The notes beneath the pieces are model-generated. The model was not told the DNA's origin and searched no databases. It was given only the letters and a program-made list of their open reading frames with translations. DNA of 64,000 bases from Alligator mississippiensis. Lineage: Eukaryota > Chordata > Crocodylia > Alligatoridae. The translations under genes were made by a program, and so were the position numbers. The stretch lies in assembly GCF_030867095.1 (NCBI RefSeq), contig NC_081831.1, positions 68,710,716-68,774,715 of the forward strand. Reading direction: 5' to 3'. Below are positions 2,633 to 45,200 of the stretch, piece by piece. The first letter of the stretch is position 1, and each line of letters starts with the position of its first letter.

Positions 2633-2889
2633 ACCGGAGCCGCACGAACAGGCTGCACAAACAGGCGCGCTTCTCTGCCGGCGCGTGAGTTAGCGCGGAG
2701 TTCGCGTGGGAGGGCGCCGGACCCTGCCTGCGCACCCCCCAGGGTAGAAAGTCCCAGCCGTAGCCAGCCTACCTGAGGCATGACACGGATGGGCACGCGC
2801 CGCACCCCGAGGGTCCCCTCGGGCTCCGCGGCCCCCCCTCTGGCACCTCAGAGACGGCCACCCAGACGGAGACCCTGGTTCCGGGCTCC

Positions 2890-3876
2890 ATGCAGACGGA
2901 GCCCCTGGCTCTCGGCTGCGGGGGCTGCCTGTCCCTTTTTCAGGCTCTGGGGCCTGGGAGCATGGCGACCTCCCCTTGCGGGGTCTGCTCCCTTTTGGGG
3001 TCTCTGGCACGCCAGCTGGAGGAGCTCCAGGCCACAGTCCAGAGACTGTGTGCCATCAGGGACTGCAAGCAGGAGATAGACTCCTACTGCCAGGCCCTTC
3101 TCCCCCGGGAGGCAGAGGGTAGATCACAGTCTCCCTCCAGGCCAGAGGAGGACTCTGGGACCTCCTGCTGTGTCCAGCCAGGGGCATGGGCCAAGGTGGT
3201 CAAGGGCCCTAAGGCCCGCCGCACCAAGGCCCCTCCCCTGCCAGAACTGAGTGACACGTACGCACCTCTTGCTGCCCCAGCAGAGCCTGCTGAGTTGCCG
3301 GCCCCCACAGGCAACATGGGCCTAACTGCAGCTCCCGCCCCTGCTCTCCCCAAGACAAAATGTAAGGTGTTTGTTGTGGGAGACTCCCTCCTGAGGGGGA
3401 CGGAGGGGCCAATCTGCCACCCTGACCCCTTAGCCCGGCAAGTCTGCTGCTTCCCAGGGGCCCGCATCCGGGACATTGCGGAGAGGATCCCCAAGCTCCT
3501 CAAACCCACAGACCACTATCCCATGCTCCTTATTCATGTGGGCACCAATGACACGGCTCGGAGCACTCCCAGCCAGGTCATGAGGCGCTACAGGGATTTG
3601 GGAGCGGGGCTTAAGGGTCTGGGGGCACAGGTGGTGTTCTCGTTGATCCTCCCAGTCTCAGGCTATGGGCTGAGAAGGGACAGGAGGATCTATGTGGTCA
3701 ACCAAAGACTGCGGCGCTGGTGTCATCAGGAAGGCTTTGGCTTTCATGACCACAGCCCGCTCTTTGGCGAGAGAGGCAGCGAGCTGCTGGGAAGAGATGG
3801 TCTCCACCTCTCTCCCCTAGGGAGGAGGCTCTTCTCAGCTACACTGGCTGACCTGCTCCACCGGGCTTTAAACTAA
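2890..3876 (+). CDS. CR1 ORF1 protein with SGNH (esterase) domain
   Basis: This 328-residue protein is the first ORF of CR1 copy A. Its N-terminus has cysteine pairs (GCGGC near residue 10, CGVC near 36), followed by a short coiled-coil-like stretch, LARQLEELQATVQRL. The C-terminal half is a GDSL/SGNH hydrolase fold: GDSLLRG with the nucleophile Ser166, GTND at residues 218-221, and DGLH at 303-306 supplying Asp303 and His306. CR1 ORF1 proteins are known to bind nucleic acid and to carry this esterase. The first ATG in frame is used; upstream sequence has no better start. The last codons TTA-AAC-TAA form a possible frameshift site with ORF2. Confidence 0.9.
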   Translation: MQTEPLALGCGGCLSLFQALGPGSMATSPCGVCSLLGSLARQLEELQATVQRLCAIRDCKQEIDSYCQALLPREAEGRSQSPSRPEEDSGTSCCVQPGAWAKVVKGPKARRTKAPPLPELSDTYAPLAAPAEPAELPAPTGNMGLTAAPAPALPKTKCKVFVVGDSLLRGTEGPICHPDPLARQVCCFPGARIRDIAERIPKLLKPTDHYPMLLIHVGTNDTARSTPSQVMRRYRDLGAGLKGLGAQVVFSLILPVSGYGLRRDRRIYVVNQRLRRWCHQEGFGFHDHSPLFGERGSELLGRDGLHLSPLGRRLFSATLADLLHRALN

Positions 3877-3881
3877 GCCCG

Positions 3882-6800
3882 TTGGGGGAGGGGAGGACTA
3901 CTGCCACTGCTGGCCCGCTGAACAATCCTTGCAAAGCCAGCGGATCACGGCACTCAAGGGAGCCCACCCCTGCCCCAGCCCTGGTAAAATCTGTGGGCAA
4001 GGAAGGAGCCCCCCAGGGGGCGCTTGCCTGCCTGTACACAAATGCCAGGAGCTTGGGGAATAAGCAGGAGGAGCTCATCCTCCTGCTCAGTGCAAACAAT
4101 TACGATGTCATAGGGATCACGGAGACCTGGTGGGACTCCACCCATGACTGGACCACGGGGATAGATGGCTATACCCTGTACAGGAGGGATCGTGTAGAGA
4201 AAAGGGGCGGGGGTGTAGCTCTCTATGTTAAGGAAAGCTACACGTCCCTGCAAGTCGATATTGGCGACCAGGGTGGACGGCTGGAGACCCTCTGGGTTAA
4301 AATCCGTGGGGAACACGGCACAGGGGACACAATGGTGGGAGTCTATTACAGACCTCCCACCCAAAGTCCTGAGCTAGACCAGGAGTTTGCCCGGGAACTG
4401 GCTGAGGCAGCTTGCTCCAGGACCATGGTTGTCATGGGTGACTTCAATTACCCAGACATCTCGTGGGAGGATCGCTCAGCAAAATCTGAGCGGTCGCAGA
4501 GCTTCCTCTCGTGCGTGGATGACCTCTACCTGACTCAAGAAGTCTATGGGCCAACGAGAGGCAAAGCGCTGCTCGACCTGGTGCTGGCTACTGGGGAGGA
4601 CCTAGTCGGCGACCTAGTGATCGATGGGAAGCTGGGTGACAGCGACCACGAGCTGATCACCTTCACCATCCGCCGAAAAGCTGGCAAGTCGGTCAGCAAC
4701 ACGCAAGTCCTTGACTTCAGGAAAGCCGACTTTAACAAGCTTAGGAGGCTTGTCAGTGAGGCCCTAAGGGACTGTGACCACAGGGAGAGGGGAGTTCAAG
4801 AAGAGCGGTTGCTCCTCAAGGGAGCGATCCTCAATGCACAAACTAAGTCTATTCCATCTCGGAGGAAAGGCAGCAAGAGGGCACAGCAGCCCCCCTGGCT
4901 CTCCAGGGACCTAGCAGACCTCCTGAGGCTAAAAAGAAAGGCCTACAAAGGATGGAGGATGGGAGTCACCTCCAAGGAGGATTATTCTGCACTGGTCCGG
5001 TCCTGTAGGGAGCAGACCAGGAAAGCCAAGGCTGCAACTGAACTCCAGCTAGCTTTGAGCATCAAGGACAATAAAAAGTCCTTTTTCAGATATGTGGGGA
5101 GCCAGAGGAAAAGCAGGGGCAACGTTGGACCCCTGCTGAACCAGATGGGGCAACTGACAACTGACGCCCAGGAAAAAGCCAACCTATTAAATAGGTACTT
5201 TGCGTTGGTCTTTCATCAGCCCCATGGGACGCCCGTGCCTGCTACAGGGCCGGGAAGTCCGGGTGAGGGTGATCCCCTGCCCTCCATTAATGCTGACTTT
5301 GTGAAGGAACATCTTGAGAAGCTGGATACCTTCAAGTCAGCCGGCCCTGACAATCTTCACCCCAGGGTACTCAAGGAGCTGGCGAGCATCATAGCCCAGC
5401 CTCTAGCATGGATCTTTGAAAACTCTTGGCGCTCTGGTGTAGTGCCCGAAGACTGGAAGAAGGCCAACGTGGTGCCTATCTTCAAGAAAGGGAGGAAAGT
5501 GGATCCGGCTAACTATAGGCCCATCAGCCTGACTTCTATCCCGGGGAAGATCTTAGAAAAGTTTATTAAGGAGGCCATCCTTAATGGACTGGCCGACGCC
5601 AACATCTTAAGGGATAGCCAGCACGGGTTTGTTGCGGGTAGGTCTTGCTTGACCGATCTCATTTCCTTCTACGACCAGGTGACCTATCACCTGGACAAGG
5701 GAGAAGAGATTGATGTCATATATCTTGACTTCAAAAAAGCCTTCGATCTGGTGTCCCATGATCGTCTCTTGGAGAAACTGGCCAATTGTCGCCTTGGGTC
5801 CCCCACGATCCAATGGCTGGAAAATTGGCTCCGGGGTCGGACCCAGAGGGTAGTAATTGATGGAAGTCACTCATTGTGGTGTCCTGTGACCAGTGGGGTC
5901 CCCCAAGGCTCTGTCCTTGGACCCATACTGTTCAACATCTTCATTAATGATGTGGACACTGGAGTCAGAAGCGGACTGGCCAAGTTCGCCAATGACACCA
6001 AACTTTGGGGCAAAGCATCCACACCAGAAGACAGGCGGATGATCCAGGCTGACCTGGACAGGCTCAGCAAGTGGGCGGATGAGAATCTGATGGTGTTCAA
6101 CACCGATAAATGCAAGGTTCTCCACCTTGGGAAAAAAAACCCGCAGCATCCTTATAGGCTCGGCAGTGCTATGTTGGTTAGCACTATGGAAGAAAGAGAC
6201 TTGGGGGTCATCATTGACCACAAGATGAACATGAGCCTGCAATGCGATGCTGCGGCTAGTAAAGCGACCAAAACGCTGGCTTGCATCCATAGATGCTTCT
6301 CAAGCAAATCCCGGGACGTCATTCTCCCCCTGTACTCGGCCTTAGTGAGGCCGCAGCTGGAGTACTGCGTCCAGTTTTGGGTTCCACAATTCAAAAAGGA
6401 TGTGGAGAAGCTTGAGAGAGTCCAGAGAAGAGCCACGCGCATGATTAGAGGTCAGGGAAGCAGACCCTACGATGACAGGCTGAGAGCCCTGGGGCTCTTT
6501 AGCCTGGAAAAGCGCAGGCTCAGGGGTGATCTGATGGCCACCTACAAGTTTATCAGGGGTGACCACCAGTATCTGGGGGAACGTTTGTTCACCAGAGCAC
6601 CCCAAGGGATGATGAGGACGAATGGTCAAACTACTACAAGATTGTTTCAGGCTGGACATAAGGAAGAATTTCTTTACTGTCCGAGCCCCCAAGGTCTGGA
6701 ACAGCCTGCCACCAGAGGTTGTTCAAGCACCTTCACTGAACACCTTCAAGATGAAACTGGATGCTTATCTTGCTGGGATCCTATGACCCCAGCTGACGTC

Positions 6801-6884
6801 CTGCCCTTTGGGCGGGGGGCTGGACTCAATGATCTTCCGAGGTCCCTTCCAGCCCTAATGTCTATGAAATCTATGAAAATCTGA
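3882..6884 (+). CDS. CR1 ORF2: endonuclease-reverse transcriptase
   Basis: The frame is open from 3852 and overlaps the ORF1 end in the -1 frame. It has no ATG until about residue 150; position 3882 is only a TTG. The APE-type endonuclease shows TNARS, ETWW, YRPP, GDFN and SDH motifs. The reverse transcriptase shows [25 protein letters not shown] and [10 protein letters not shown]. The catalytic box reads KFANDTKLWG, with Asn (AAT, 5991-5993) where copy B has Asp (GAT); the change is a CpG-to-CpA transition. Near 6625 a 2-bp loss relative to copy B shifts the frame, so the last roughly 80 residues differ from the CR1 C-terminus. Retrotransposition from this copy is probably abolished by the Asp loss. 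Confidence 0.92.
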   Translation: MGEGRTTATAGPLNNPCKASGSRHSREPTPAPALVKSVGKEGAPQGALACLYTNARSLGNKQEELILLLSANNYDVIGITETWWDSTHDWTTGIDGYTLYRRDRVEKRGGGVALYVKESYTSLQVDIGDQGGRLETLWVKIRGEHGTGDTMVGVYYRPPTQSPELDQEFARELAEAACSRTMVVMGDFNYPDISWEDRSAKSERSQSFLSCVDDLYLTQEVYGPTRGKALLDLVLATGEDLVGDLVIDGKLGDSDHELITFTIRRKAGKSVSNTQVLDFRKADFNKLRRLVSEALRDCDHRERGVQEERLLLKGAILNAQTKSIPSRRKGSKRAQQPPWLSRDLADLLRLKRKAYKGWRMGVTSKEDYSALVRSCREQTRKAKAATELQLALSIKDNKKSFFRYVGSQRKSRGNVGPLLNQMGQLTTDAQEKANLLNRYFALVFHQPHGTPVPATGPGSPGEGDPLPSINADFVKEHLEKLDTFKSAGPDNLHPRVLKELASIIAQPLAWIFENSWRSGVVPEDWKKANVVPIFKKGRKVDPANYRPISLTSIPGKILEKFIKEAILNGLADANILRDSQHGFVAGRSCLTDLISFYDQVTYHLDKGEEIDVIYLDFKKAFDLVSHDRLLEKLANCRLGSPTIQWLENWLRGRTQRVVIDGSHSLWCPVTSGVPQGSVLGPILFNIFINDVDTGVRSGLAKFANDTKLWGKASTPEDRRMIQADLDRLSKWADENLMVFNTDKCKVLHLGKKNPQHPYRLGSAMLVSTMEERDLGVIIDHKMNMSLQCDAAASKATKTLACIHRCFSSKSRDVILPLYSALVRPQLEYCVQFWVPQFKKDVEKLERVQRRATRMIRGQGSRPYDDRLRALGLFSLEKRRLRGDLMATYKFIRGDHQYLGERLFTRAPQGMMRTNGQTTTRLFQAGHKEEFLYCPSPQGLEQPATRGCSSTFTEHLQDETGCLSCWDPMTPADVLPFGRGAGLNDLPRSLPALMSMKSMKI

Positions 6885-15792: not shown

Positions 15793-16751
15793 GATTAGAG
15801 CAGGGTTGGGCAAAATACAGCCCACAGGCCATTCTATCCGGCCGACAGAGCCCCTAAAAAATTTAGTAAATTAATATTTATTTGCCCCGGCTTCCTGTCA
15901 AAGCTGCCTAGAAGCAGGGGCAGTAGGACCCAGAGGGAGCCCTCAGCAGGCTTGAGCAGCCCAGCCTCACCCACCCCCAGCCAGTTCCCTGCTTTCCTGC
16001 TTCAGCACCACCTGGGCAGAGCGTGTGCGTTTGCATCTCTGCAGGCACAGGGGCAGAGTGTGCGCACGTCTCTGCAGGCACAGGGGCAGAGAGTGTGTGT
16101 GTGTGTATATGTGCCCGTCTCTGCAGGCACAGGGGCAGACTGTGTGTGTGTCTCTCTCTGCAGGTACAGGGGCAGAGTGTGTGCACGTGTGCATCTCTGC
16201 AGGCACAGGGGCAGTGTGTGCGTGCCCATCTCTGCAGGCACAGGGGCAGTGTGTGTGTGTGTGTGTGCCTGTCTCTGCAGGCACAGGGGCAGTGTGTGTG
16301 TGTGTGTGTGTGTGCCTGTCTCTGCAGGTACAGGGGCAGAGTGTGCGTGTGCCCGTCTCTGCAGGTACAGGGGCAGAGTGTGCGTGTGTGTGCATGCCCA
16401 TCTCTGCAGGCACAGGGGCAGAGTGTACACACGCCTCTGCAGGCACGGGGCAGAGTGTGCGCACGCCTCTGCAGGCACGGGGGCAGAGTGTATGTGCGCG
16501 ACTCTGCAGGCACAGGGGCAGAGTGTGCGCGTGTCTCTCTCTGCAGGCACAGGGGCAGAGTGTGCGTGTGTGCGCGCGCGTCTCTGCAGGCACAGGGGCA
16601 GAGTGTGTGCATGTGTGTCTCTGCAGGCACAGGGGCAGAGTGTGTGCGCACGTGCATGTCTCTGCAGGCACAGGGGCAGACTGTGTGTGTGTCTCTCTCT
16701 GCAGGTACAGGGGCAGAGTGTGTGCGCATGTGCATCTCTGCAGGCACAGGG

Positions 16752-16787
<36 letters not shown>

Positions 16788-16890
16788 TGTCTCTGCAGGC
16801 ACAGGGGCAGTGTGTGTGTGCGCGTGCCCATCTCTGCAGGCACATGGGCAGTGTGTGTGCACGCGTGTGCATCTCTGCAGGCACAGGAGC

Positions 16891-16921
<31 letters not shown>

Positions 16922-18276
16922 CCGTCTCTGCAGGCACAGGGGCAGTGTGCATGCGCCTCTGCAGGTACAGGGGCAGAGTGTGCGTGTGCCCATCTCTGCA
17001 GGTACAGGGGCAGAGTGTGCGTGTGCCCGTCTCTGCAGGTACAGGGGCAGAGTGTGCGTGTGTGTGCATGCCCATCTCTGCAGGCACAGGGGCAGAGTGT
17101 GCACACGCCTCTGCAGGCACGGGGCAGAGTGTGCGCATGCCTCTGCAGGCACGGGGGCAGAGTGTATGTGCGCGTCTCTGCAGGCACAGGGGCAGAGTGT
17201 GCGTGTGCCCGTCTCTGCAGGTACAGGGGCAGAGTGTGCGTGTGTGTGCATGCCCATCTCTGCAGGCACAGGGGCAGAGTGTGCACACGCCTCTGCAGGC
17301 ACGGGGGCAGAGTGTATGTGCGCGTCTCTGCAGGCACAGGGGCAGAGTGTGCGCGTGTCTCTCTCTGCAGGCACAGGGGCAGAGTGTGTGCGCACGTGCA
17401 TGTCTCTGCAGGCACAGGGACAGAGTGTGTGCACGCGTGCCCGTCTCTGCAGGGACAGGGGCAGAGTGTGTGCGTGCGTGCCCATCTCTGCAGGCACAGG
17501 GGCAGAGTGTGTGCATGCGTGCCCGTCTCTCTGCAGGCACAGGGGCAGTGTGTTTGTGTGCGGGCGCGTCTCTGCAGGCACGGGCAGCGTGTGTGCGTGC
17601 GTGCCTCTGCAGGCACGGGGACAGAGTGTGTGTGCGTGTGCGCGCGCACACATCTCTGCAGGCACAGGGGCAGAGTGTGTGTGTGTCTCTCTCTCTGCAG
17701 GCACGGGCAGTGTGTGTGTGTGTCTGTCTGCAGGCACGGAGGTTGTGTGCGTGCACACACATGCAGGCACAGGGACAGAGTCTGTGTGTGTGTGTCGATA
17801 GGGTGAGTCCCACACGCACATCCCTCCATACACATTTATCTACATCTCCCCTTGCACTGCCATACACAAAACCCAGCCACCCTCCCCCCATACCCACCCA
17901 CCACCCCCCCAAAATACAAGAATAAGACTTCATTTTAAGCTATTGTGCAATCACCTCTGCATACATTACACAAATGCATGTAAATCAGGACAAAAGTATT
18001 TTTTGAAATAAAATTAACCAATGTTGTAGATGATCACTTTTTATAATATAATTTGGTATTTTTCTGGTTCCGAGATGGCAAAACCCCTTCCTGAAATGAG
18101 TACTTCCAGGGGCAAGGGGAGGGACTGCTAGTGGCAAAGGTCATGGGTTAGGGGGTGGGACTTCTGGTTACAAGATGGCTTCCAGGGGGCAGGGCTACCT
18201 CTGCAGCCCTTGACAGCTTGCCAAAACTCAGTAAGCAACCCTCTGCACAAAATAATTGCCCACCTCTGGATTAGCG
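15793..18276 (+). mobile_element. 2.47 kb hAT element enclosing a minisatellite
   Basis: The body is 15801-18268, starting CAGGGTTGGGCAAAATAC and ending CAAAATAATTGCCCACCTCTG. The flanks GATTAGAG (15793-15800) and GATTAGCG (18269-18276) agree at seven of eight positions. Left and right ends match the 170-bp MITE at 8085-8254. The interior is dominated by the tandem array at 16030-17785; no transposase is seen. Confidence 0.85.
16030..17785 (+). repeat. GC/TG-rich minisatellite, about 45 units
   Basis: Each unit has a conserved core TCTCTGCAGGCACAGGGGCA followed by a variable run of alternating TG, CG and CA dinucleotides. I count about 45 occurrences of TGCAGG, so the mean unit is close to 39 bp. 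Higher-order duplication is visible: the string TGCGTGTGTGTGCATGCCCA recurs at 16381, 17055 and 17237 with matching neighbours. The array has few stop codons, giving open frames of about 600 codons in several frames on both strands. These are composition artefacts, not genes. Confidence 0.95.
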
Positions 18277-39200: not shown

Positions 39201-42200
39201 CCCAAGACACAAGTAGCCTAAGAGCTATTAGGGGGCTGGCAGCGTGCCCCTCCAACCACTGCTTTCCCTAACACAGTGATGGGGTGGGATAAACTAAAAC
39301 ACATTTTAAAATTTCCATTTCTAGAATCTAACTATTGGGGGGGGGGGGAGGGGGGCTCTTAAATTTGAAGGTGGGCTTGGATTCAAGTAAATACAGCATA
39401 TTACTGTTCAGATGAACACATTATGCTTAAAAGGCACCATACTAAGCAAAATACTTAGCCCACTAAACCTATGCAAAGGCTCCCACTGACATCAAACGCA
39501 GAGCCAGAATTCTGCCTTTCGTATTTAAGGGATAAGTTTTGTAATACTAAGCCTTAAAAAAATACCTTAAGTGCTTGCAGTCTAGCTTGTTCCTCCTCCA
39601 GTGCTTGCTGTTTCTCTTTCTCATCCATTCGGCTAAATGACATTCCTGTGTTGGCAAGTGTGGAAACAGCACTGGACAGGGTACTTGCTCTAAAATGAAA
39701 AGTTACAGTAAGACACTTGATTAAGAAAAGTCTTTTGCATTCAAAAAAAGGCATGAAAAGTGCTTCTACACAACAAGTATGCTACCTGTCATTTGCACCA
39801 CTACCTCACCCTTGGATGAGAAAATACAGCAGCTCCTCTGAACTAGCATTACCAGACATTTTGTGAGGAGGGGACAAATGCAGACTGAATTCACCTGTGG
39901 TCCCAGCTAAGTGGATATGAGAATATGGATAATGAAATCATCATGTCAGGTGCAGGCAATTGTAAATGCATAATCTGACAAGCCAGGAAAATACCATAGA
40001 CATGATTAAAACAGAGCTGATCACTTTGCTATTCCAGTTTGATATTAAAAATATGTAATTTAACAAGGAGTTTGATGACATACTGAAGACATGCAACTGT
40101 CAACAGATAAGGAGCAATTAATGCACAATCAACTGATATTGCCTTATTAATAGGGAAAAACAATTAGTTAGCTTTTATAGTTTTTCACTCTTACTGAAAA
40201 AGAAAACAAATACAGTCTCTTATAAAAGGAAGTGGAAGAAAACAAGCAGATTAGTTCAAAGAACATCCTCCCCCTTCCCTGCCCAGATTTATGGTCCATT
40301 TGCTGCTTACCTGCTGGCAGCTGAAACTTCTTTTGTTTTCTTCCCTTCCAAAGAAGCCAAATGTTGCTCCAATGCTTCAAGCAAACTGCTGGGTGCCTAA
40401 AGTCAAAGTTCTCATAAAACATCTGCTTGATGACAATGCATTACCATCCTTTTGTACAGACTAATTTTTCCCATTAACCAACTAAAAAAACTTACGCATT
40501 TACTTTTGAAAGGTTGTGTTCAACTTGAATTTTGTTTACAAGATTCACTTTGTGATGACACCCCCTGTAAATCAATGCATACAACATGGTTCTCCACAAT
40601 GTTTTATTGGGGGGCAGAAAAAAACAAAACCAAAGTCTCTCAACCTGAGAACAGCAGCAGAAGTTACTGAAGTGCTTAGCACAGCAATGCCATTGCCAAA
40701 AATTAATTAGCACCCCTAAGCACTGTGGGTGCGCTTACATGAAGCATTACTTTTTTTTTCCCCTCTACAGCAGGACTCTTACAACTCAAAACCCACAAGG
40801 CAAGCAAATCTGTATCAGTACAACACAAAACTAGCTTTAAGAAAGAAAAATTTGATTTGTATAGCTAGTTTACCACCTCACTATCACAGAATACTGTCAT
40901 ACATTTATCACTGATCAAATTATCTAATTGATTTGGTTAATCTAAAGGATCCTGGTTTATTCCCAATCTTCAATAGGCCTCTCCAATATTTTTCGATGCT
41001 GGATTAGATGAACCTTGAGGTCCTTTCTAACTATGATTTAGCTGCAGTATACTGGAGATGCCCTCCTCTTTTTTCTGACCAGGAACTAAACACCATCTTG
41101 AAAACAAAAAAAATCATTTAAAGATTTAAAGGTGGATGATGTCATTTTGATTAAGACCGTGCTTAACACTGCCCTTTTTAAGGGTACTCTCAGGATTGTG
41201 CTATCCCTAGCAAAAAGCTAAATATCGTTTTGATATATTAGATACTTTTTAAAGCCTAAAAGAGCTGAACAGACATCAGTAAATGGAAGCCATAATCTCA
41301 TTGTAAAAAGTGCTAAAGACTGAGTGAATGAGACATCTCAACTACTAAGCAACAATTGAACAGAAGCGAGCATAAAATAAACCATGCCAGAACCCAGCAT
41401 TGACTCAGGGCCAGATCTAAAAAGTAATTAGGCACGTTGGGAGTTCAGTGCCTAAGTACTAGGCACTAAAGGCCAGATCCAAGACACAGTAAGATGCACA
41501 GACAGCTACTGACTAGAGGACCTGCCAATAAAAAGGTACATTTTTTCAAAGTTAAATCAACTGAACCTCCCTTCAGCATCTATGCTAAAAGACGATCAAA
41601 CATGCCAGTATTTCATAGACATTAGGGCTGGAAGGGACCTCAGAAGATCATCAAGTCCAGCCCCCTGCCCAAAGGGCAGGAAGTCAGCTGGGGTCATAGG
41701 ATCCCAGCAAGATAAGCATCCAGTTTCATCTTGAAGGTGTTCAATGAAGGCGCTTGAACCACCTCCGGTGGCAGGCTGTTCCAGACCTTGGGGACTTGGA
41801 CAGTAAAGAAATTCTTCCTTATGTCCAGCCTGAAACGATCTTGAAGTAGTTTGTGACCATTCGACCTCGTCATCCCTTGTGGCGCTCTGGCGAACAAACG
41901 TTCCCCCAGATACTGGCGGTCACCCCCGATAAACTTGTAGGTGGCCATCAGATCACCCGAGCCTGCGATTTTCCAGGCTAAAGAGCCCCAGGGCTCTCAG
42001 CCTGTCATCGTAGGGTCTACTTCCCTGACCTCTGATAATGCGCGTGGCTCTTCTCTGGACTCTCTCAAGCTTCTCCACATCCTTTTTGAATTGTGGAGCC
42101 CAAAACTGGACGCAGTACTCCAGCTGCGGCCTCACTAAGGCCGAGTACAGGGGGAGAATGACGTCCCGGGATTTGCTTGAGAAGCATCTATGGATGCAAG

Positions 42201-45200
42201 CCAGCGTTTTGGTCGCTTTACTAGCCGCAGCATCGCATTGCAGGCTCATGTTCATCTTGTGGTCAATGATGACCCCCAAGTCTCTTTCTTCCATAGTGCT
42301 AGCCAACATAGCACTGCCGAGCCTATAAGGATGCTGCGGGTTTTTCTTCCCCAGGTGGAGAACCTTGCATTTATCGGCGTTGAACACCATCAGATTCTCG
42401 TCCGCCCACTTGCTGAGCCTGTCCAGGTCAGCCTGGATCACCCGCCTGTCTTCTGGTGTGGATGCTTTGCCCCAAAGTTTGGTGTCATCGGCGAACTTGG
42501 CCAGTCCGCTTCTGACTCCAGTGTCCACATCATTAATGAAGATGTTGAACAGTCTGGGTCCAAGGACAGAGCCTTGGGGGACCCCACTGGTCACAGGACA
42601 CCACAATGAGTGACTTCCATCAATTACTACCCTCTGGGTCCGACCCCGGAGCCAATTTTCCAGCCAGTGGATCGTGGAGGACCCAAGGCGACAATTGGCC
42701 AGTTTCTCCAAGAAGCGATCATGGGACACCAGATTGAAGGCTTTTTTGAAGTCAAGATATATGACATCAATCTCTTCTCCCTTGTCCAGGTGATAGGTCA
42801 CCTGGTCGTAGAAGGAAATGAGATTGGTCAAGCAAGACCTACCCGCAACAAACCCGTCCTGGCTATCCCTTAAGATGTTGACGTCGGCCAGTCCATTAAG
42901 GATGGCCTCTTTAATAAACTTTTCTAAGATCTTCCCCGGGATAGAAGTCAGGCTGATGGGCCTATAGTTAGCCGGATCCACTTTCCTCCCTTTCTTGAAG
43001 ATAGGCACCACATTGGCCTTCTTTCAGTCTTCGGGCACTACACCAGAGCGCCAAGAGTTTTCAAAGATCCATGCTAGAGGCTGGGCTATGATGCTCGCCA
43101 GCTCCTTGAGTACCCTGGGGTGAAGATTGTCAGGGCCGGCTGACTTGAAGGTATCCAGCTTCTCAAGATGTTCCTTCAGAAAGTCAGCATTAATGGAGGG
43201 CAGGGGATCACCCTCACCCGGACTTCCCGGCCCTGTAGCGGGCATGGGCGTCCCATGGGGCTGATGAAAGACTGACGCAAAGTACCTATTTAATAGGTTG
43301 GCTTTTTCCTGGGCGTCAGTTGTCAGTTGCCCCATCTGGTTCAGCAGGGGTCCAATGTTGCCTCTGCTTTTTCTCCGGCTCCCCACATATCTGAAAAAGG
43401 ACTTTTTATTGTCCTTGATGCTCAAAGCTAGCTGGAGTTCAGTTGCAGCCTTGGCTTTCCTGGTCTGCTCCCTACAGGACCGGACCAGTGCAGAATAATC
43501 CTCCTTGGAGGTGACTCCCATCCTCCATCCTTTGTAGGCCTTTCTTTTTAGCCTCAGGAGGTCTGCTAGGTCCCTGGAGAGCCAGGGGGCCTGCTGTTCC
43601 CTCTTGCTACCTTTCCTCCGAGATGGAATAGACTTAGTTTGGGCATTGAGGATCGCTCCCTCAATGAGATGGTCTCGTTTGAGATGGTCTCGTTTGTAGC
43701 CTAGGTGGAGCGTAGCCATTTCCAACTCCTCCTTCAAAAAAGAAACTTGCCTTGAAGAAGAGTTGCCTGTTTGGCATGAAGGAGAACTCAGTATCCATCT
43801 CTGTGACATGACATTCCTAGTCCCTTATCAATGTAGCTAGCCATGGTATCATTAACTGACAGGATTAAGTCACATACAAGAAAAAAAATAAAACTCTTTC
43901 CCACAAATAAAACACCAGATCCCAATAACAGAAACATCTTGATTGATTTCAAATGCCTATCTTGGTCTTGAGACCTATTAAATTTCTAGGCACTTCAGCA
44001 CCTTCCAAGAAAATATACAGCAACATTTTGTTGGGGACACTATAGAAAACAAGCATCTGGATTTATAAAGTAGTGGAAATTCTTCCCTCTACTGCTCCAT
44101 TTAGACCAGAGAGTGCTAATCCAGGTATTTCCAGGATAGACAGTGAAAGAAATATGCTACTGTACAAGGTGCTGGAGACCTCACCAGGACTACTGTGTAC
44201 AACTCTAGTTGCTCACAGTGAAGAAAGATAAACTCAAAATAAAACGCAAAGAGAGAAAGGCAACTAGAACCGTTGTCTGGGAAAAGACTGCAGATTGTTC
44301 AGTGTAGCACAACAAAGGCTGGGAGAGAATAACGATTACCACCAATTGATTTAAATAGAACAAACATAAGGGGGAGACGCAAGTCATGTAAGCTAAGCAA
44401 AGCTGGTATAAGAACAAATGGATATCAACTTGCCATGAATAAATTTTGGCTGGAAATCTTAGAAGGACATTTTTAACTATCAAAGGAATTAAATTTTGCA
44501 ACAACCTCACTTCTAAGTGTTTATGATGATGCTCAAACAATTTATGCAGTAGTTTCTTGCATTAGCAGGGGTCTGGACAGAATGATTCCAGGAGGTTCTT
44601 TCCACTGCTATGTTCCAGTTCAAGAAATCCAAGTTTCTAAAATGGTTTTAATATCCTCTAAATCACAGAAAGCATGTTCTGGCCACATTGACTGTGAAAG
44701 TTTTAAAGTTAGTTTTATCAAGGGGGTAAGCTTGAATAGAAACAGTTCATCCTTGCTCATAAACTCTTTTGAAAAGAGGACTTGGCGAAGAGCTGTTGAG
44801 GTTAACTGATTAATTCTGATAAGTGAGACCATAACAAGGTCAAGGTCATCTCTCATCACATAGTTTAACTTGTAATATAGATTACAAGGTAGTGTTAGCC
44901 AGGCTACTTTATTTATGTTATGAAGTGTTAACCAAGTACCCATTTGTTCACTGTTACCAGGGCACATGTAACAGAATCAAACCAAAATAGCAGCAGTTTG
45001 TTCACCACTGGAATAACTAAGGGTTCACATGGCCAACCGGCTGCAGAAGCACAAGAGGCACTGGCAACTTATGTGTGGCACTTGATGAATCAGGTAGGCA
45101 GCACATCAGCACTTAGGGCAGGAAGCAGAAGGTAGAGCAGGAGATTAGGTAGGGAGCACAAAGCAGGGAGCCCAAATATAACAAAGTGCCCCTTCAGAAG

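Follow-up and report, generated by a model that had tools for sequence, protein, structure and literature searches.

The CR1 element and its ORF junction

A 64,000-nucleotide (nt) stretch of the Alligator mississippiensis genome (NC_081831.1, positions 68,710,716 to 68,774,715), referred to here as the window, carries a CR1-like long interspersed nuclear element (LINE) with two open reading frames (ORFs), and we consider how the second of these is expressed. The name CR1 was given in an earlier reading of the window from its letters (the original prediction), and it fits the domain content. Pfam places the domains of the CR1 clade where they would be expected, namely an esterase in ORF1 (Lipase_GDSL_2, E 2.8e-11, residues 206-355 of the stop-to-stop frame) and an APE endonuclease followed by a reverse transcriptase (RT) in ORF2 (Exo_endo_phos, residues 70-266; RVT_1, residues 547-764). 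We conclude that ORF2 is probably made through programmed -1 ribosomal frameshifting at a U_UUA_AAC heptamer at the end of ORF1 (Table 1). This reading is based on the sequence of the heptamer, its phase, its conservation across CR1 families of one genome, and a switch of the coding frame at the same place.

The original prediction had named TTTAAAC as the slippery site, and the sequence does read X_XXY_YYZ in the phase of ORF1 (GCT TTA AAC TAA), with the stop codon adjoining. It had further placed ORF2 in the -1 frame, overlapping ORF1 and lacking an early ATG. Both statements are borne out: the frame is open from 15 nt 5' of the heptamer, and its first methionine is residue 161, past the endonuclease motif TNARS at residue 63, so that an AUG start there would cost the protein the beginning of its endonuclease.

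Between 2764 and 6884 there are seven X_XXY_YYZ heptamers (YYY being A or T, and Z not G), three of them within ORF1; the other two in ORF1 (2933 and 2990) are out of phase, leaving the one at 3867 as the sole in-phase heptamer of that ORF. With the window's own codon usage, in which TTA accounts for 4.5% of leucine codons, the chance of Ala-Leu-Asn being spelled GCT TTA AAC is 0.0064. This spelling probability, together with recurrence in divergent CR1 families, makes the heptamer more than a chance occurrence, with the comparison of families being the main argument.

Table 1. Features of the CR1 element around the ORF1-ORF2 junction (window coordinates)
Feature	Position	Strand	Remark or basis
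ORF1, stop-to-stop frame	2764-3876	+	
ORF1, first ATG to stop	2890..3876	+	Encodes GDSL/SGNH-type esterase
TGA closing the ORF2 frame, 15 nt 5' of heptamer	3849..3851	+	Sequence
ORF2, stop to stop	3852..6884	+	-1 frame relative to ORF1; 1010 codons
Hairpin	3859..3884	+	Arm 3859-3868, loop 3869-3874, arm 3875-3884; one mismatched pair in window copy
Slippery heptamer T_TTA_AAC, ORF1 phase	3867..3873	+	Sequence and copies compared
ORF2-frame linker, heptamer to endonuclease motif	3867..4034	+	168 nt; N-terminal FKL
ORF1 stop codon TAA	3874..3876	+	Sequence
G-runs GGGGG, GGGG, GG	3884..3896	+	First run 10 nt 3' of heptamer
Endonuclease start (YTNARSLGNK)	4035..4063	+	
Reverse transcriptase domain	5490..6143	+	Pfam RVT_1, E 2.8e-29

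Conservation of the heptamer among CR1 copies

All comparisons were made within the window's host genome (2.35 Gb, 195 contigs), because no CR1 relative was found when collections of viral contigs, genome contigs, phages and plasmids were searched. A junction query of the host genome gave 3,100 first-look candidates, 40 of which were scored, and a degenerate junction pattern allowing up to three mismatches matched 13,046 times versus twice for the reversed control. From the best-scoring places we assembled 41 distinct copies of the window's own family (family A), of which 40 have TTTAAAC and one has CTTAAAC. Having been picked by similarity, these copies reflect only the state of a recent source.

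A second sample of 50 copies was chosen by an endonuclease motif rather than by the junction. This motif has 4,872 matches (control, 0); among the 100 listed, the first 30 were read along with 20 of the other 70, the latter selected for motifs differing from the commonest one. The junction is present in 41 of the 50, deleted across in L077, and in the remaining eight the copy proved on inspection to be truncated, deleted or unrecognisable; inspecting these misses serves as a check on the junction-finding profile, which was built from box-bearing seeds and could be biased. Of the 41 junction-bearing copies, 39 retain an intact TTTAAAC, the others being L096 (TTTAAAT) and L071 (TTTAAGC). About half belong to a single, abundant family (B), whose ORF2 protein shares 56% identity with that of family A over 511 residues; the heptamer has thus been kept across a deep split.

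Removal of near-duplicates reduced 40 junction rows to 16 non-redundant ones, 14 of them with TTTAAAC. Among the 16, C-TTTAAAC-TA has a mean pairwise identity of 0.96, which falls to 0.71 in the 23 nt before it and to 0.58 at positions +9 to +39. The ORF1 third positions that fall within the heptamer are identical in 16/16, 16/16 and 15/16 junctions, versus 7/16 to 15/16 for the eight upstream ones. The stop codon of ORF1 is TAG in 12, TAA in three and lost in one. The original prediction staked itself on conservation of the heptamer and of the -1 phase in other copies, and within this genome both are kept among CR1 families.

Four further copies carry a Leu-type endonuclease motif: two have TTTAAAC (L109 and L110), L111 has no junction and L112 breaks off at the site. 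L109 is a relative of family A. L110 is very divergent, with TTTAAACTAA and then GGGGG at the same place, and could represent an older CR1 lineage that retains the site; the linker of this copy is not in frame and has many stops, and its pattern occurs rarely, with 41 matches versus 11 for the control.

Where the coding frame changes

The distance from the heptamer to the endonuclease motif is 168 nt in all 58 family A hits, which are overlapping loci of the 41 distinct copies, with the heptamer required. Among the rows outside family A, it is a multiple of three in 27 of 41 (165, 180, 198, 216, 240, 243 or 255 nt). Independent copies give 15 of 20 (p 1.7e-4), and 13 of 18 (p 8.5e-4) when the representatives of families A and B are left aside. 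A cross-match of hit-list coordinates yielded multiples of three for 9 of 15 distances, a set that overlaps the copies already read.

Stop codons point the same way. Downstream of the heptamer, the 15 in-length copies have 5 stops in 877 codons of the ORF2 frame versus 89 in 1,724 codons of the other two frames (one-sided p 1.8e-11), and without families A and B the counts are 5/742 versus 82/1,458. The third codon position is the most variable in both groups of equal-length linkers (0.36/0.37/0.50 and 0.19/0.26/0.28; the pairs are non-independent). Upstream, in 18 copies, the ORF1 frame has 5 stops in 432 codons, the ORF2 frame 33 in 432 and the third frame 4 in 414; since the third frame is also stop-poor here, only the ORF2-frame count is telling. 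Among 18 independent copies, the window's included, the ORF2 frame closes 15 nt before the heptamer in 11 (TGA), 24 nt before it in three (TAG), 3 nt before it in two and 42 nt before it in one, and is open in one (L106, which has an upstream indel). Linker length and stop counts together indicate that the ORF2 frame is coding from the heptamer onward, beginning with FKL, and hardly at all further upstream. The coding frame switches at the heptamer.

This switch bears on the idea that the box is conserved as a DNA or RNA element (a promoter, a packaging signal or a protein-binding site) unrelated to decoding, with ORF2 being expressed by other means. Conservation of the box and the G-runs at the nucleotide level would suit such an element, but it predicts neither that the open frame should change there nor that linkers should come in multiples of three, and we regard it as very unlikely.

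Motifs resembling splice donors (CAGGTAAG) are found repeatedly in the linker across several families (L059-L104), where they encode Q-V-R/S in the ORF2 frame. Splicing from ORF1 to the linker by way of these motifs was rejected by eye. In L108, GGTAAG of ORF1 is joined to GGTAAG of the linker and the junction is lost; the retained GGTAAG fits a repeat-mediated deletion.

Secondary structure around the junction

The strongest fold is a hairpin that encloses the heptamer and the stop codon, rather than a structure 3' of the heptamer. Its loop is UAAACU, and its stem takes in the heptamer's two leading U residues and the final two bases of the stop codon. Folding z-scores are -2 or lower in 9 of 14 copies (two from A and two from B), -1.7 in two and near 0 in three (L102, L104 and L105, the last truncated upstream); the 14 copies share ancestry and are non-independent. 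Across the 16 junctions, 82.5% of hairpin cells are paired, versus at most 48.8% when the hairpin is slid along the alignment.

A stable hairpin lying exactly at the junction, with z at or below -2 in those nine copies, is what one would look for if it recruited ribosomes that start at or near FKL without a start codon, like the intergenic elements of dicistroviruses. Such internal entry leaves the retention of an X_XXY_YYZ heptamer unexplained. To our knowledge, moreover, internal-entry elements of the dicistrovirus kind are all far more complex than a hairpin of about 40 nt, and we consider this route extremely unlikely.

The G-runs are conserved from +17. Glycine codons have G in the third position in 14 of 16 junctions at +20 and in 15 of 16 at +26, while the third position between them, +23, is free. 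Such conservation at synonymous sites suggests that the runs may have a role as RNA. With quadruplexes enabled in folding, 14 copies gave three quartets in two B copies, two quartets in L074, L101 and L104, and none in nine. Rfam returned seven weak matches on 3780-4040, none at gathering score.

Start codons and points against frameshifting

Several results weigh against frameshifting. All of the evidence comes from one genome; the heptamer is broken in L096, L071 and L007; and 14 of the 41 rows outside family A, like 5 of the 20 independent copies, have linker lengths other than multiples of three. In those five (L064, L071, L089, L091 and L107) the endonuclease frame is interrupted by 2 to 4 stops. 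Covariation in the hairpin lies within shuffles, its score being reached by 82 of 500 and its paired percentage by 102 of 500 (shuffles, 81.1%). CpG decay can mimic paired changes, and the hairpin is best described as conserved complementarity without proven covariation. Pseudoknot-free folds starting 3' of the heptamer (+8 to +70 or +8 to +120) reach a z of -2 in none of the 14 copies. The original prediction had proposed a G-quadruplex or stem in this region; its G-runs are there, with G kept at synonymous sites, and a stable downstream fold was not found among those 14 copies.

The remaining points concern start codons. An ATG at the start of ORF2 in other copies was to count against the original prediction. 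None occurs in the window copy or in family B copy L061, where the whole stretch from the upstream ORF2-frame stop to the endonuclease is ATG-free, and the linker is without methionine in the 58 family A hits and in 11 of 12 in-frame B rows; such an ATG is found in one older clade. Of 20 copies, five have ACG as the ORF2 codon 9 nt before the heptamer (L064, L074, L092, L095 and L098) and three have ATG (L071, L089 and L104), the latter perhaps through CpG decay of ACG. At 21 nt before the endonuclease motif, ATG is found in 4 of 20 (L074, L089, L095 and L104), with ATA, ATT or ATC in eight more, and the older clade may have had its own ORF2 start codon. The finding of this second ATG led us to lower our confidence in frameshifting slightly and to raise that in initiation by as little.

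The rival to be taken seriously is initiation in the ORF2 frame. Ribosomes terminating on ORF1, or arriving otherwise, would restart at a nearby AUG, ACG, CUG or UUG, or at the AUG before the endonuclease, and no fusion would be made. The ACG and ATG codons listed above would serve this purpose, as would the pre-endonuclease ATG of the junction-less L093 and the CTG or TTG found at +15 in 8 of 16 aligned rows. Elsewhere, however, the codon at -9 is CCA, CCG, GCA, CTG, ACA or AAA, and families A and B have CAG and GTC, respectively, before the endonuclease, so neither place offers a start codon common to the families. A TAG 3 nt before the heptamer closes the ORF2 frame in L098 and L102 (in L098, right after the ACG), and the linker 5' of the second ATG is conserved as ORF2-frame protein. 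Initiation also leaves the invariance of the heptamer at ORF1 synonymous sites unexplained. On balance we judge it unlikely, and prefer frameshifting.

As a separate observation, the ATG found 21 nt ahead of the endonuclease motif is clade-specific (Met-Gln-Gly-Leu-Lys-Cys-Leu in L074 and L095) and could be a second, later ORF2 start.

Proposed mechanism

In frameshifting as we picture it, U_UUA_AAC would supply the last two sense codons of ORF1, directly before the stop. Most ribosomes would end at UAA or UAG and release abundant esterase ORF1 protein. Some would slip back by one base, re-pairing UUA AAC as UUU AAA and bypassing the stop. These would go on to make a rarer single fusion of ORF1, linker, endonuclease and RT, presumably the active protein, with control of the ratio resembling that of Gag and Gag-Pol.

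The hairpin may have a part in this. By the time UUA is in the P site, the ribosome would already have opened the hairpin, and the G-rich 3' arm would lie at the mRNA entrance, where, once freed, it might act as a roadblock. We put forward, tentatively and with more doubt than belief, that this is an ancestral CR1 device: the hairpin would hold the heptamer and the stop, melting would free the G-rich 3' arm as a slippage-stimulating roadblock (a quadruplex or a re-paired stem), and a major LINE group of amniotes would produce its ORF2 solely as a fusion of esterase, endonuclease and RT.

Other repeats in the window

The region 5' of ORF1 contains a direct repeat of 94% identity (1968-2215 and 2379-2625), which was not called as a tandem array and possibly represents repeated units of the 5' untranslated region. 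A second copy of the same CR1 family, 5'-truncated, lies on the minus strand at 41610-43661; it is 97% identical to 4819-6870, and its frame is broken. A 37-bp minisatellite of about 43 copies at 16118-17791 has long open frames on both strands.

Comparison with known systems

Among transposed families, CR1 is described as the most abundant in birds, crocodilians, turtles and snakes, and amniote CR1 elements have two ORFs, the second with endonuclease and RT, with many CR1 families per reptile genome; the part of this source consulted makes no statement on the mode of ORF2 translation (PMC4316615). A search of open-access literature combining "CR1 LINE" and "ribosomal frameshift" found 0 papers, and among the open-access titles and abstract openings listed, none describes translational frameshifting in CR1. 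These do not cover the founding papers (Kapitonov and Jurka 2003; Haas 1997, 2001; Kajikawa 1997), where a prior description is possible. Frameshifting itself is known; what was not found described in the open-access search is a vertebrate LINE that employs it for ORF2.

For most clades it is still unsettled how LINEs translate their second ORF. Should frameshifting hold for CR1, a non-LTR (long terminal repeat) element would be using Gag-Pol-like ratio control by way of a conserved, in-phase slippery site, and this would suggest that ORF2 annotations beginning at an internal methionine are wrong. The junction is a short cassette and can be tested directly.

Gag-Pol -1 frameshifting of animal LTR retrotransposons has been reviewed, and in the portion of that review used here LINE ORF2 is thought to employ initiation of an unknown kind, the frameshifted non-LTR gene that is named being HeT-A gag and not one of CR1 (PMC5009743). 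The LTR elements and CR1 share an arrangement in which a structural-type protein comes first and RT second, in the -1 frame (PMC5009743, same portion). CR1 differs in lacking LTRs, in having an esterase as ORF1 and in encoding an APE endonuclease.

SART1 uses UAAUG stop-start coupling, and together with ORF2 translation in L1 it would share with CR1 an unusual translation of the second LINE ORF that depends on translation of ORF1, so far as the sections consulted describe it (PMC2881922). Termination-reinitiation of the SART1 type does not fit families A and B, where no AUG overlaps the ORF1 stop (TAAGCC in A, TAGGC in B). The linker of CR1, in contrast to SART1, is coding back to the heptamer.

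U_UUA_AAC is the heptamer of -1 programmed frameshifting in coronaviruses and their relatives. CR1 departs from these in that it is a genomic retrotransposon, in that the stop adjoins the heptamer, and in that the heptamer lies inside a hairpin, with no downstream structure detected in the copies compared; what the two have in common is the heptamer, its phase, and a downstream replication protein in the -1 frame.

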